DNA of 57,979 nucleotides, taken from positions 1 through 57,979 of the forward strand of contig CASGCE010000001.1 of assembly GCA_949299935.1 (NCBI GenBank), written 5' to 3'. Position 1 is the first letter of the stretch; each line of letters begins with the position of its first letter. This document shows, in pieces, positions 144-27,940 of the stretch. Source of the stretch: an uncultured bacterium (lineage in GTDB: Bacteria > Cyanobacteriota > Vampirovibrionia > Gastranaerophilales > Gastranaerophilaceae). A model generated the notes under the pieces. It had not been told where the DNA came from. It did no database searches and saw only the letters and a list, made by a program, of their open reading frames with translations. A program made the translations under genes and the position numbers.

Positions 144-1058
144 ATGGGTTTAAACGCAAATTCAAAGCAGGATCTGGAAGATTTCAAATCATATATTTTA
201 GTTGAAAAAAACTTTTCGGAACATACGGCAAAAGCCTACTGTTCGGACGTTTTAAGCTTTTTAGTGTGGATAAATGATACATCATGTGAAAATGTTAACT
301 TTTCCAAAGTCAGGGATTATCTTCATTTTATCCAAAAATTTAATTACAAAAAGACTACTATAGCCAGAAAAATCGCTTCTATAAGAACTTTTTACAAATT
401 TTTATACAGAGAAAGAAAGGTTAACTCTAATCCGGCATTAAATCTTAATTCTCCAAAACGACCAAAATCACTACCAAAATTTTTAACACCTGATGAAATT
501 GAAAAAATTCTTAACAATGTAAAAATTGACACACCTGCGGGATTTAGAAACAGAGCTATTCTGGAACTTTTGTGGGCAACGGGAATGCGGGTATCCGAAC
601 TCAGCGGATTAAATTTCGGGGATTTGAATTTAGAAAACAATGAAATCCGTGTTTTCGGAAAGGGTGCCAAAGAAAGGATAATTCTTGTAACTGACAGGGC
701 AAAAACTTACCTTGAAAGATATTTAACTTCAGCCCGTATGCTTATACCAAAAGGCTTTAGGGTGGAAGAGCCGACGGAAAGCTCGCCTGTTTTTATTAAT
801 AACACAGGCTACAGGCTGCAAACAAGAACTATCCGTAATGTTATAAATGAAACAGTTGACAAAATTGAACTCCCGAAAAAGGTTACGCCGCACGTATTCA
901 GACACAGTTTTGCAACTCATTTGATAGAAAACGGTGCGGATTTGCGTGTGGTGCAGGAACTTTTAGGACACGCCAGCATCTCAAATACGCAAATCTACAC
1001 ACATGTTTCCATGCAGCATATGAAAGAAGTCTATAACGAAGCCCACCCGAGAGCCTAA
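144..1058 (+). CDS. xerC: Tyrosine recombinase, XerC/XerD type
   Basis: A 304-residue site-specific tyrosine recombinase, close to the usual Xer length. Residues 10-95 form the SAM-like core-binding domain and residues 115-300 the catalytic domain. The catalytic set is visible: Arg in GMRVSEL, Lys in GKGAKER, HVFRH, the GH of LLGHAS and the final Tyr in QIYTH. Family knowledge says such proteins resolve chromosome dimers at dif, paired with a second Xer protein; a candidate partner lies at 35990-36847. No strong ribosome binding site precedes the ATG, so the exact start is uncertain. The gene converges on the prepilin-like gene, sharing four bases at the 3' ends. Confidence 0.9.
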   Translation: MGLNANSKQDLEDFKSYILVEKNFSEHTAKAYCSDVLSFLVWINDTSCENVNFSKVRDYLHFIQKFNYKKTTIARKIASIRTFYKFLYRERKVNSNPALNLNSPKRPKSLPKFLTPDEIEKILNNVKIDTPAGFRNRAILELLWATGMRVSELSGLNFGDLNLENNEIRVFGKGAKERIILVTDRAKTYLERYLTSARMLIPKGFRVEEPTESSPVFINNTGYRLQTRTIRNVINETVDKIELPKKVTPHVFRHSFATHLIENGADLRVVQELLGHASISNTQIYTHVSMQHMKEVYNEAHPRA

Positions 1059-2149
1059 AGCCACGGGTAATCCTCTTTGATTTCCCATCCGTCTAAAAAT
1101 ATTAAATAACCGCAAGCATACATATTATCTAATTCACAGTTTTTCAATGCTGACGCTCTGCTTGAAGCGTATTTGTAAAATTCAAATTGACGAGAATTTA
1201 AGTTGAACCGCATTACAAAAATATCCTTGCCAAGCGTATTGGGACCTTGAAATCCGTTTATATCAACATAAAAATTAGGATTCAAAAATTTATCCACACA
1301 TGTTCCGTCTGCGACACTTGTACCCTCCGCACAGCCTGAAGTTCCTATAACTATACTAACCAAAACATTGCTTGACAAAAGAAAAAAATACTTTCGTGTG
1401 CCGGCACCCGCGGTATAATCTCCGGTCGTCGGGTTTTTAGAACCATCATACTTAATAGCTTGTCTTTTTGTATAACCAAAATCCTTTGATACTTTTAAAT
1501 ACGGTATTAAATACTTTTTAACAAAAAGTTCTAACGCCTCTTTTGAAGAAAAATCACTATCCGCTGTCGGAGTTCCGTAAATTCCGGACACTTCCCAGGT
1601 GGTTGTATCCCCGTGTTCTGCCTGCGCCATTGTGAGAGCCTGCGACAACACCGAATACGTTTGTTTTAATTTTGATACCGTCTGTTTTTTCTGATAATTC
1701 GCTATAAGCGTCGGAATTGTCATAGCTGCCACAATGCCGATTATGGCAAGGGTTATCAAGACTTCTGCTAAGGTAAAGGCGGCTTTCTTTTTAAAGTCGT
1801 TAAGACGATAAGACGTTAGGACATTAAGTTCTTTACTGTGAGTTTTGCTAACATTTGTGTCATCCTGAACTCGTTTCAGGATTTCTGATTTATAATTCAT
1901 CATATCAGAATTATAATTTGTTTCGGGGGCTGTGTCAATTCTTTTTATATCTTGTAGGTCGGGTTTACTAACCCGACTGCTAACTTTTTTGTCGGCATAG
2001 TAATGCCGACCTAGATTTCTAATCCGACTGTTACCTCTTAGTGCCTTAGTGCCATAGTATCTTAGTAACGTTACTAAACCAATACCGCCAAAACCCTTGT
2101 CCTGTCTACTTAGGAGAGTCGCCCCCCCCCCGTTATTAAAACTAGTCAT
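1055..2149 (-). CDS. Prepilin-like protein, copy 1 (poly-G state ON, 10 G)
   Basis: The full frame of 364 residues runs from a Shine-Dalgarno-equipped ATG at 2149 through a ten-G tract into a type IV prepilin-like protein. The prepilin motif is AAFTLAEVLITLAIIG, with mature Phe at residue 125, Glu at +5 and Ala in place of the usual Gly at -1. The C-terminal half carries the motif DINGFQGPNTLGKD, which the copies at 20826 and 27203 share. A second start at 1903 sits 6 bases after a consensus promoter (P2) and gives 282 residues. Even then the leader is 42 residues, much longer than usual, because repeat-like DNA interrupts it. The exported product probably acts at the cell surface; its exact role is unknown. 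Confidence 0.8.
   Translation of the reverse strand: MTSFNNGGGATLLSRQDKGFGGIGLVTLLRYYGTKALRGNSRIRNLGRHYYADKKVSSRVSKPDLQDIKRIDTAPETNYNSDMMNYKSEILKRVQDDTNVSKTHSKELNVLTSYRLNDFKKKAAFTLAEVLITLAIIGIVAAMTIPTLIANYQKKQTVSKLKQTYSVLSQALTMAQAEHGDTTTWEVSGIYGTPTADSDFSSKEALELFVKKYLIPYLKVSKDFGYTKRQAIKYDGSKNPTTGDYTAGAGTRKYFFLLSSNVLVSIVIGTSGCAEGTSVADGTCVDKFLNPNFYVDINGFQGPNTLGKDIFVMRFNLNSRQFEFYKYASSRASALKNCELDNMYACGYLIFLDGWEIKEDYPWL
1862..1882. repeat. REP-like palindrome inside prepilin copy 1
   Basis: A perfect inverted repeat has 8-bp arms, ATCCTGAA and TTCAGGAT, and a 5-base loop. It lies within the coding sequence and encodes ILKRVQDD between the conserved NY and FTLAEV segments. Copies 2 and 3 of the prepilin lack this stretch, so it looks like a short palindromic repeat inserted in frame. 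Confidence 0.6.
1890..1938 (-). promoter_or_regulatory. P2 promoter and start-codon palindrome, prepilin copy 1
   Basis: Read on the minus strand, TTGACA (1938-1933), a 17-bp spacer and TATAAT (1915-1910) make a perfect sigma70 consensus. The ATG follows 6 bases later at 1903, so the transcript would be leaderless. The -10 box lies in one arm of a perfect 9-bp inverted repeat (1890-1898 and 1908-1916, TTATAATTC and GAATTATAA) whose 9-base loop contains the start codon. Copies 2 and 3 have the same geometry. Confidence 0.8.
1958..2077. repeat. Cluster of short palindromes inserted in cassette 1
   Basis: Two perfect hairpins lie side by side: 1958-1977 with arms GTCGGGTT and AACCCGAC, and 1991-2010 with arms GTCGGCAT and ATGCCGAC, each with a 4-base loop. 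An imperfect relative at about 2012-2030 and a 16-bp perfect palindrome at 2062-2077 follow. In cassettes 2 and 3 the poly-G block and the P2 -35 box are only about 14 bases apart. This cluster fills that position in copy 1 and leaves the reading frame open. It resembles REP/MITE-type insertions. Confidence 0.65.
2106..2131 (-). repeat. Poly-G (10 G) tract and two-frame stop block, cassette 1
   Basis: On the minus strand ten G residues (2131-2122) are followed by CGACTCTCCTAAGTAG (2121-2106). With ten G the upstream ATG frame continues as GGGATLLS into the prepilin. Nine G would give GGGRLS and stop at TAA; eight G would stop at TAG. Cassettes 2 and 3 carry nine G and an almost identical 16-base block. 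Confidence 0.85.
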
Positions 2150-20733: not shown

Positions 20734-20772
20734 ATGGAAAGAGAAAAAAGCGGGGGGGGGCGACTCCTCTAA
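20734..20772 (+). CDS. Short leader ORF ending at the poly-G block, cassette 2 (OFF state)
   Basis: A 12-residue ORF, MEREKSGGGRLL, has a good ribosome binding site and ends at the TAA of the conserved 16-base block. It is too short for normal gene calling. With one more G the same ATG reads GGGATPLS and continues in frame into the prepilin at 20826, making a 40-residue stretch before the prepilin cleavage site. Whether the short peptide itself does anything is unknown. Confidence 0.6.
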   Translation: MEREKSGGGRLL

Positions 20773-20790: not shown

Positions 20791-20839
20791 TTGACCTAAT
20801 CGACACAATGTGCTATAATTCTGGTATGAAGAATTATAG
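20791..20839 (+). promoter_or_regulatory. P2 promoter and start-codon palindrome, prepilin copy 2
   Basis: TTGACC (20791-20796), 17 bp, TATAAT (20814-20819) with an extended TGC, then 6 bases to the ATG at 20826. A perfect inverted repeat, CTATAATTC (20813-20821) and GAATTATAG (20831-20839), holds the -10 box in one arm and the ATG in the 9-base loop. Confidence 0.85.
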
Positions 20840-21539
20840 TTCAAGAAAGGGTTTTACCTTAGCGGAGGTACTAATAACGATAGGAATAATCGGTATAGTA
20901 GCGGCTATTACGATACCAACAATTATCGCAAATTATAAGCAAAAAACATTAGATAACCAGTTTAAAAAGAGTTACGCATTAATAAATCAAGCATTATTAA
21001 ATGCACAGAGTCAATTTGGATACATACCAAAGTGTTATTATCCGTCTGGCACAATAAGTACCGTAATGACAGAAGATTGTACCGAATTATCAAATATATT
21101 TTTAGCATCATTAAAAATAACAAAGATTTGTAAAGATAAAGCCTATGAAAACGGATGTATTCCGGAATATAAAGGTTTTGATGATATCATAAAAGATGTG
21201 CACAAAGATGATGCAGATTACGATGAAGACTATTGGCAAGATTATGCAACGAGAAATTGTGGAGGATTCAATACCTCCAAGATTTTAAATGAAAAAACGG
21301 TATATGTTTTATCAGATGGTACAATATTGTTTTTTCATAGTAATGCATTTGGTTATAATATTATAGTAGCTATAGATATAAATGGAAAAAATGGTCCAAA
21401 CAAATGGGGATATGATTTATTCGGATTTGATTTAAGATACAATGGTCGTGTTTTAAGATATGAGGGTAACGACGGTTGCGCATTACCTGAGCAAGGTGGC
21501 TATAGTGCAAAAGAAATGATAAATAGATTATTCCGCTAA
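20826..21539 (+). CDS. Prepilin-like protein, copy 2
   Basis: A 237-residue protein with the N-terminus MKNYSSRKGFTLAEVLITIG. Cleavage would fall after RKG, leaving Phe at +1 and Glu at +5, followed by a hydrophobic helix (VLITIGIIGIVAAITIPTII) as in type IV pilins and type II secretion pseudopilins. The C-terminal domain has six or more Cys and the family motif AIDINGKNGPNKWGYD. The start at 20826 is preferred over 20808 because it lies 6 bases after a near-consensus -10 box. Its promoter cassette may toggle an extended form. It meets the convergent gene at 21536 with a four-base overlap. Confidence 0.88.
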   Translation: MKNYSSRKGFTLAEVLITIGIIGIVAAITIPTIIANYKQKTLDNQFKKSYALINQALLNAQSQFGYIPKCYYPSGTISTVMTEDCTELSNIFLASLKITKICKDKAYENGCIPEYKGFDDIIKDVHKDDADYDEDYWQDYATRNCGGFNTSKILNEKTVYVLSDGTILFFHSNAFGYNIIVAIDINGKNGPNKWGYDLFGFDLRYNGRVLRYEGNDGCALPEQGGYSAKEMINRLFR

Positions 21540-27101: not shown

Positions 27102-27149
27102 ATGCGTTATAAAGAGTTTAAAAATTTCGGGGGGGGGCGACTCCTCTAA
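27102..27149 (+). CDS. Short leader ORF ending at the poly-G block, cassette 3 (OFF state)
   Basis: A 15-residue ORF, MRYKEFKNFGGGRLL, with a strong ribosome binding site. It stops at the TAA of the conserved block. One additional G would continue it as GGGATPLSSNNKNLD and onwards in frame through YNSNMENY into the prepilin, giving 43 residues before the cleavage site. The first eight codons are unrelated to those of the other two leaders; only the GGGRLL end is conserved. Confidence 0.6.
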   Translation: MRYKEFKNFGGGRLL

Positions 27150-27167: not shown

Positions 27168-27216
27168 TTGACACCTTATCAAACAGAAACTATAATTCAA
27201 ATATGGAGAATTATAG
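27168..27216 (+). promoter_or_regulatory. P2 promoter and start-codon palindrome, prepilin copy 3
   Basis: Perfect consensus TTGACA (27168-27173), 17 bp, TATAAT (27191-27196), then 6 bases to the ATG at 27203. A perfect inverted repeat, CTATAATTC (27190-27198) and GAATTATAG (27208-27216), has the ATG in the 9-base loop. Confidence 0.88.
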
Positions 27217-27940
27217 ATTAAGAAAAGGTTTTACATTAGCGGAAGTACTAATAACGTTGGGAATTATTGGCATAGTAGCAGCAATGACAATTCCGACACT
27301 AATTTCAAAATATCAAAAGAAAATTCTACATACTCAATTTTTAAAAGCATATAGTGATCTACAAAATGTTGCAAAACGTTTTCAAGCGGATGAAGGTATT
27401 ACTGTATATGAATACAGTCAAAAAGAGAGTAGTACACTTTCTACTAATACTCTCAAAAGGTTAATGGAGTATTTTATAGGAGTTGAGAAAGGATCTATTA
27501 CAATTACCAATTATACAAATACAATTGAGAATGCTCTTGGATTTATTCCCAAAAATTTGAAGGGTGAGGATATTTCAGTTTCTCCTTGTGATCGTTCAAT
27601 AGTGACAGAGGAAATTGGCGGAAGGTTTTTTTCAATGGATGATCCTGTGAGTGTTTACAATAATCCTCCTAATGGACCCAAAATTTGTGTTGATATAAAT
27701 GGTAAAAAAGGACCAAACATTTATGGCTATGATTGGTTTGTATTTACATTTACAAAAGATGGTGGTGTTAAGCCTTTTATTGGGCGAGTGCTTCAAAATC
27801 TTGGACTTGATATGGAAGATCCAGCAGACGCATGCAATTATGATTATGAAAGTGTAACATATACTTGTGCTTATTTTGCAGCTACAAATACAAGTCCGGA
27901 AGATCCATCAAAGGACTATTGGAATGATTTTCTAAAATAA
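27203..27940 (+). CDS. Prepilin-like protein, copy 3
   Basis: A 245-residue protein starting MENYRLRKGFTLAEVLITLG. Prepilin peptidase would cut after RKG, leaving Phe +1 and Glu +5, and the hydrophobic helix runs to about residue 33. The C-terminal domain carries CVDINGKKGPNIYGYDWF, the same motif as in copies 1 and 2. That motif could form a turn or metal site; this is a guess from the D-x-N-G spacing. Middle regions of the three copies differ strongly, as expected for surface-exposed, diversifying proteins. It would be exported and assembled or anchored by type IV pilus or type II secretion machinery, which is not encoded in this window. Confidence 0.88.
   Translation: MENYRLRKGFTLAEVLITLGIIGIVAAMTIPTLISKYQKKILHTQFLKAYSDLQNVAKRFQADEGITVYEYSQKESSTLSTNTLKRLMEYFIGVEKGSITITNYTNTIENALGFIPKNLKGEDISVSPCDRSIVTEEIGGRFFSMDDPVSVYNNPPNGPKICVDINGKKGPNIYGYDWFVFTFTKDGGVKPFIGRVLQNLGLDMEDPADACNYDYESVTYTCAYFAATNTSPEDPSKDYWNDFLK

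Follow-up and report, generated by a model that had tools for sequence, protein, structure and literature searches.

The systems closest to the locus described here are the controller (C) proteins of restriction–modification (R-M) systems, e.g., C.Esp1396I, C.BclI and C.Csp231I, which are, like the candidate regulators considered below, small, single-domain proteins of the HTH_3 type. In the excerpts of the C.Esp1396I report (PMC4041747), two dimers of the protein occupy quasi-symmetric operators—each centred on a central TATA—and a further site at a transcription start represses a promoter; those sites lie within 35 bp, whereas the prepilin units reported here are 12-mers placed 21 bp apart. 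According to the excerpted account of C.Csp231I (PMC4321490), this protein has two sites of 15 bp separated by a gap of 18 bp, and the C-box reads GACT/AGTC; the prepilin units, in contrast, have the form GAA..TTC, i.e., GAATTATA/TATAATTC. Moreover, R-M genes are adjacent in R-M systems, whereas none was seen in the short flanks read beside the XRE genes of this study. Since the C-box sequence, as given in those excerpts, is absent, the candidate regulator would work like a controller protein without being one. A second relative is the cytolysin repressor CylR2, a 66-residue regulator related by protein sequence to one set of proteins found here (group-1 XRE), for which CylR2 (1utx) was the nearest match among PDB sequences (E-value of 5.4e-7) and C.BclI the third (1.7e-5); we do not extend this likeness to the operator DNA. 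Finally, phase-variable surface genes, including those of Neisseria and of Bifidobacterium pili, carry a homopolymer tract in frame upstream of a pilin-type gene, as do the cassettes described below, and tract lengths differ between prepilin copies as they do in phase-variable genes—with the tract belonging to the start of a longer frame, P1, and the palindrome to an inner promoter, P2.

Our literature search retrieved no published account of the control of pilin-type genes in these gut relatives of cyanobacteria, nothing linking Gastranaerophilales to phase variation and nothing joining the XRE family, prepilin, operator and repressor. The hosts are uncultured and harbour very many pilin-type genes, and a shared operator together with candidate repressors would make the control of these genes directly testable in a heterologous host. 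A promoter conserved, along with its putative operators, within a reading frame also constitutes an unusual case.

The stretch of DNA analysed (termed the window) comprises 57,979 nucleotides and holds three exact matches to TATAATTC-N9-GAATTATA, at 1891-1915, 20814-20838 and 27191-27215; no match occurred in 100 dinucleotide-preserving shuffles of the window. Including the outer pair, which is C-G in copies 2 and 3 but T-A in copy 1, extends the arms to 9 bp and the repeats to 1890-1916, 20813-20839 and 27190-27216, exactly where the initial annotation had placed three perfect inverted repeats, each with arms of 9 bp and a loop of 9 nt. Its description of their anatomy also holds for all three copies: the -10 box lies inside the left arm, the prepilin ATG lies in the loop, and the -35/-10 spacer of this TTGACM/TATAAT-type promoter is 17 bp throughout. 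The features of the three copies are as follows.

1055-2149, minus strand: prepilin gene 1, long form, 364 aa (Pfam N_methyl, residues 120-144)
2122-2131, minus strand: G10 tract, with the P1 frame reading through into the prepilin (ORF 1055-2149)
1933-1938, minus strand: P2 -35 box TTGACA, copy 1
1908-1919, minus strand: putative operator unit O1 over the P2 -10 box (1910-1915), copy 1, T/A class
1887-1898, minus strand: putative operator unit O2, copy 1; ATG at 1903-1901
20752-20760, plus strand: G9 tract in the P1 frame (ATG 20734), with a stop codon 9 nt after the tract
20791-20796, plus strand: P2 -35 box TTGACC, copy 2; third codon positions are constrained in this box
20808-21539, plus strand: prepilin gene 2 (Pfam N_methyl)
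20810-20821, plus strand: putative operator unit O1 over the P2 -10 box (TATAAT, 20814-20819), copy 2
20813-20839, plus strand: 9-bp inverted repeat, copy 2; the loop ATG at 20826 is the predicted P2 +1
20831-20842, plus strand: putative operator unit O2, GAATTATAGTTC, copy 2; centre 21 bp from that of O1
27129-27137, plus strand: G9 tract in the P1 frame (ATG 27102)
27168-27173, plus strand: P2 -35 box TTGACA, copy 3
27187-27198, plus strand: putative operator unit O1 over the P2 -10 box (27191-27196), copy 3
27208-27219, plus strand: putative operator unit O2, copy 3; ATG at 27203
27203-27940, plus strand: prepilin gene 3 (Pfam N_methyl)

Alignment of 119 non-redundant copies yielded the consensus AAACTATAATTC-N9-GAATTATAGTTY, and the symmetry of the consensus exceeds 9 bp (approximately AACTATAATTC-N9-GAATTATAGTT), with its centre at the A of the ATG, i.e., the predicted +1. 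This A lies 7 nt past the -10 box and at the symmetry centre, a spacing that suggests a leaderless P2 mRNA. The name given to the element in the initial annotation, a start-codon palindrome, is thus misleading: the ATG does sit in the loop, but the centre of symmetry is the P2 start site; the short transcript probably has no leader, and this start site therefore coincides with the ATG. Each arm together with its flank forms a 12-bp quasi-palindrome close to GAATTATAATTC and centred on TATA, and the centres of these two units, O1 and O2, are 21 bp apart on either side of the predicted +1. Allowing up to three mismatches, O1 was present in 115 and O2 in 104 of the 119 copies (both in 102), and the position of O2 was unique—these 104 copies have it at offset 17, and a test of 15 alternative offsets gave no copy. 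We favour, with a probability of roughly 0.6, the reading that the palindrome is a twin operator, embedded in the strong inner promoter P2 of a genus-wide prepilin family, for a repressor of the XRE type.

To place the window copies in context, we also examined their genome of origin (G000; 1.68 Mb in 37 contigs) and its relatives. Among 67 FTLAEV-like starts in G000, the palindrome occurs at 26 sites, all at the starts of FTLAEV prepilin genes and all (26/26) with the ATG in the loop—a recurrence that the initial annotation had singled out as worth looking for. The sequence GAAYTATARTTC was found 14 times in this genome, 12 times at palindrome prepilins and twice within unrelated coding sequence, and 11 ordinary G000 prepilins had no unit within 200 bp upstream (L038, named as a twelfth, was left out). 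In a family-wide sample, five of six same-genus genomes and none of 140 others contained the palindrome; in a relaxed form, about 120 copies exist across the genus. One of the listings used for the genus required TATAAT and gives a lower bound on the matches; the G155 rows were therefore taken from the set of -10 variants instead. We collected 166 prepilin starts from ten genomes, 127 of them with TATAAT in range, usually 17 bp past the -35 box; three G000 copies with a distant FTLAEV brought the number of TATAAT-bearing starts to 130, and the removal of four with fewer than 4/7 right-arm bases, together with the merging of identical 70-base windows, gave the 119 copies analysed above. Family members with the promoter but lacking the right arm, which the initial annotation named as the cases that would count against it, are few. 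In 124 of the 130 starts, the right arm (AATTATA, at least 5/7 bases) follows TATAAT by exactly 12 nt, although the match in one of these, L040, is coincidental and belongs to an ordinary Shine-Dalgarno region; two of the six starts without the arm, L263 and L280, showed no G/C tract in the upstream sequence inspected.

Because the palindrome region lies inside a longer reading frame—one that begins at an upstream Shine-Dalgarno/ATG, crosses a G- or C-tract and, if the register allows, continues into the prepilin—codon usage could be used to distinguish between constraint on the protein and constraint on the DNA. Third positions in the 119 non-redundant copies were compared with the bodies of the same genes (9715 codons) and were biased to the consensus in the -35 box, the -10 box and both arms. 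The corresponding z values, which overstate independence because the copies are related, were 22 for the final C of TTGAC and 13.9, 13.4 and 8.4 for positions -1, 17 and 26, respectively; the spacer third positions -16, -13, -10 and -7 stayed at background (z of 1.7, -1.5, -0.7 and -0.8), and this contrast between arms and spacer is unaffected by relatedness. Lys at +15 was encoded by AAG 48 times versus AAA once (background AAG fraction of 0.30), and Asn at -3 by AAC 60 times versus AAT eight times (background AAC fraction of 0.28). Third positions in the arms are therefore constrained far beyond codon usage while those of the spacer are not, i.e., the constraint acts on nucleotides. These counts bear directly on the view that the right arm merely encodes a conserved Asn-Tyr-Ser/Lys leader, its likeness to a -10 box being a chance product of AT-rich DNA. 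The frame through the palindrome is indeed open to the prepilin in translated tract-bearing cassettes, where it encodes YNS..NY, but the third-position bias of the arms makes this view very improbable, and the corresponding region in genome G038 has no open frame yet carries a TATAAG-type right unit at the same distance. A constraint acting on the protein only was rejected on the third-position counts.

The initial annotation had also considered an RNA hairpin that hides the start codon in the longer P1 transcript. In this account, the arms would pair and hide or insulate the internal AUG, and translation from it would be confined to the short P2 transcript, in which the left arm is missing. 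Several observations are in keeping with such a structure. Folding of the three window copies gave -12.9, -7.3 and -5.9 kcal/mol (z of -3.4, -3.7 and -2.6), and the outer pair (-1,25) covaries, being C-G in 73 and T-A in 21 of the 119 copies—a paired fraction of 0.79 against a mean of 0.57 in within-genome shuffles, none of 1000 of which was as well paired. Pair (-2,26) was associated as well (2/1000 shuffles), and no association was detected for the other variable arm pairs in this test of 119 copies. Joint switches between C-G and T-A fell on 12 edges of a rough tree of 115 copies, a count that is weak because the tree was built on short, recombining sequence, and gene conversion of the block would also explain them. 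The covariation of the outer pair is predicted by a hairpin, but so it is by two operator classes or by block conversion.

Other findings run against the hairpin. The right arm is equally conserved with and without a start codon in the loop: it was perfect (7/7) in 67 of 92 copies with a loop ATG versus 20 of the 27 (among 119) that have no ATG at this position, and in seven loci (L301, L302, L309, L311, L312, L317 and L321) the right arm is kept and precedes a separate Shine-Dalgarno sequence and ATG. On this ground, we rejected a start-codon function of the palindrome. In addition, four of five -10 variants are uncompensated (G134:C7, G149:C50, G150:C77 and G153:C31), both sides having changed in the fifth only (G068:C36), a pattern that fits two independent binding units better than a stem; the units also recur as odd-numbered arrays in non-coding DNA. 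Finally, eight P1-only G000 cassettes (L028, L046, L049, L051, L055, L057, L059 and L066) have no P2 -10 box, neither arm and no ATG, and the joint loss of the P2 -10 box, the ATG and the right arm in these eight indicates that the arms go with the promoter. The hairpin, weakened as a sole account by the uncompensated -10 changes, is retained as an unlikely rival, less likely than the twin operator.

Two further explanations were considered. In one of them, the element is a symmetric, bidirectional promoter, with the right arm serving as the -10 box of antisense transcripts that run towards the G-tract and P1; on the opposite strand, the right arm is indeed TATAATTC, and the symmetry would place both starts at one base pair. 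The forward -35 box, however, scores 5 or 6 of 6 in 115 of 127 copies, whereas the reverse match to TTGACA at 16-18 bp reaches at most 3/6 in 124 of 127, and the symmetry extends beyond the hexamer; such a promoter is accordingly highly unlikely, and we discarded it for want of a reverse -35 box. The other explanation regards the block as a landmark of recombination or gene conversion, marking the exchange of 3' parts between prepilin cassettes. The many near-identical cassettes and the whole-block switches are consistent with this idea, but the block is kept in divergent species with different flanks and the same units occur in XRE leaders, so we consider it very improbable.

The twin-operator reading draws additional support from the surroundings of candidate regulator genes. 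In genome G038, the prepilins of four loci examined are divergent to small HTH_3 genes. Eight further genomes carry relatives of one of these genes (the group-1 regulator) at 80-94% identity, and a ninth carries a fragment. From 43 XRE loci, three without a local tblastn match and one fragment (L360) were set aside, leaving nine intact group-1 orthologs and 30 other XRE genes to be counted. The 160 bp upstream of the nine orthologs contained 22 units with at most two mismatches, against a shuffle expectation of 0.79 (maximum of 5, n = 300); being orthologs, these nine genes are not nine independent events, and the orthologs were counted after the unit had already been noticed in a single intergenic region. 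The group-1 arrays proceed mostly in steps of 20-21 bp, with sites near 57, 78 and 98; in several species they occupy the non-coding DNA that separates a small HTH_3/XRE gene from a divergent prepilin gene. In L351-L353, the array begins over the -10 box of a TTGACA promoter directed at the prepilin, and in genome G116 (L357) the group-1 gene is divergent to a prepilin that carries the exact palindrome. A short, near-symmetric unit is thus repeated at regulator gene and target, within the XRE-prepilin intergenic sequence in the case of group 1.

The control set of 30 other XRE genes gave 23 matches (shuffle mean of 1.8), mostly from a group 2 that was set apart as a second operator-bearing group only after this result had been seen. 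This group, represented in G000 by L361 (C8:58697-58891), adjoins an open frame resembling thrS (judged by eye from the start of the translation), and its own leader carries pairs of units such as GATTTATAATTG and GATTTATAAATC at a distance of 21 bp; these units match the T/A class of palindromes better than the commoner C/G class. PF01381 scored above cut-off in the XRE neighbours of the four G038 prepilins, in G116 L357 and in G000 L361. Group 1 has no close ortholog in G000 (best identity of 37%) and no high-identity match in G149, G151 or G068 (best of approximately 35-37%), all three of which contain the palindrome; these are draft metagenome assemblies, from which genes may be missing. 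Group 2 is present in all four genomes (L361-L364). At least 18 divergent HTH_3-prepilin pairs exist in the genus (coordinates compared by eye), plus others seen in sequence only, and such pairing is hence common. Ordinary prepilins, too, are often divergent to a small HTH_3-like gene of their own (L040 and L067 in G000, and loci in G038, G068, G096, G148, G150 and G154), with other operator-like repeats over the promoter.

Taken with the nucleotide-level constraint on the arms, the recurrence of the units in non-coding arrays beside HTH_3/XRE genes and their placement over the -10 box and the transcription start support the operator half of the initial proposal. The presence of one unit both beside small repressor-like genes and on prepilin promoters suggests that the palindrome is probably a shared switch site, through which dozens of pilin-type genes would be shut off jointly. 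From sequence comparison we infer the following scheme for the twin operator. O1 covers the -10 box and O2 spans about +6 to +17; their distance of 21 bp, or two helical turns, puts both on one face of the DNA, and a small, single-domain HTH_3 (XRE, Cro/CI-type) repressor could bind there as two dimers; members of either XRE group are candidates for this role. Once bound, the repressor would block RNA polymerase at P2, and many prepilin genes would thereby lose their short and probably leaderless transcripts jointly. With its G- or C-tract, the upstream P1 start may then provide each gene with a route of its own to the same mature pilin. An elaboration of this scheme, which we advance tentatively as possible rather than probable, is a two-layer choice of pilin: a single XRE repressor, or a few, would jointly silence P2 in dozens of cassettes, from twin operators written in the coding sequence of the longer P1 frame, and slippage at the tract would let single cassettes escape one by one; the C/G and T/A operator classes might answer to different XRE paralogs.

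With respect to the tracts themselves, the frame continues into the prepilin in copy 1 of the window (G10) but not in copies 2 and 3 (G9). A heuristic script located a G- or C-tract in frame upstream of P2 at loci L016-L080 and L231-L349. By the same script, 99 of 158 tracts were G9, mostly followed by a stop codon 9 nt on, and read-through into the prepilin was seen in 12 of 24 G10 copies and in a few G6-G8 copies. Six loci (L019, L030, L042, L060, L064 and L078) represent a second cassette type, with a C-tract block in the upstream frame that is mostly AGTCGCCCCCCCCC, the reverse complement of GGGGGGGGGCGACT of the main type. Three others (L031, L062 and L068) have a G-tract without P2 and, right after the tract, another short inverted repeat, which is CCAATGTAGTCGTTGG in L031 and CCAACGTAGCCGTTGG in L062 and L068. 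Finally, the window ORF at 1055-2149 (minus strand), L035 and L341-L345 contain in-frame, repeat-like insertions (approximately CCTGAAACGAGTTCAGGATGACA) between the leader and FTLAEV.
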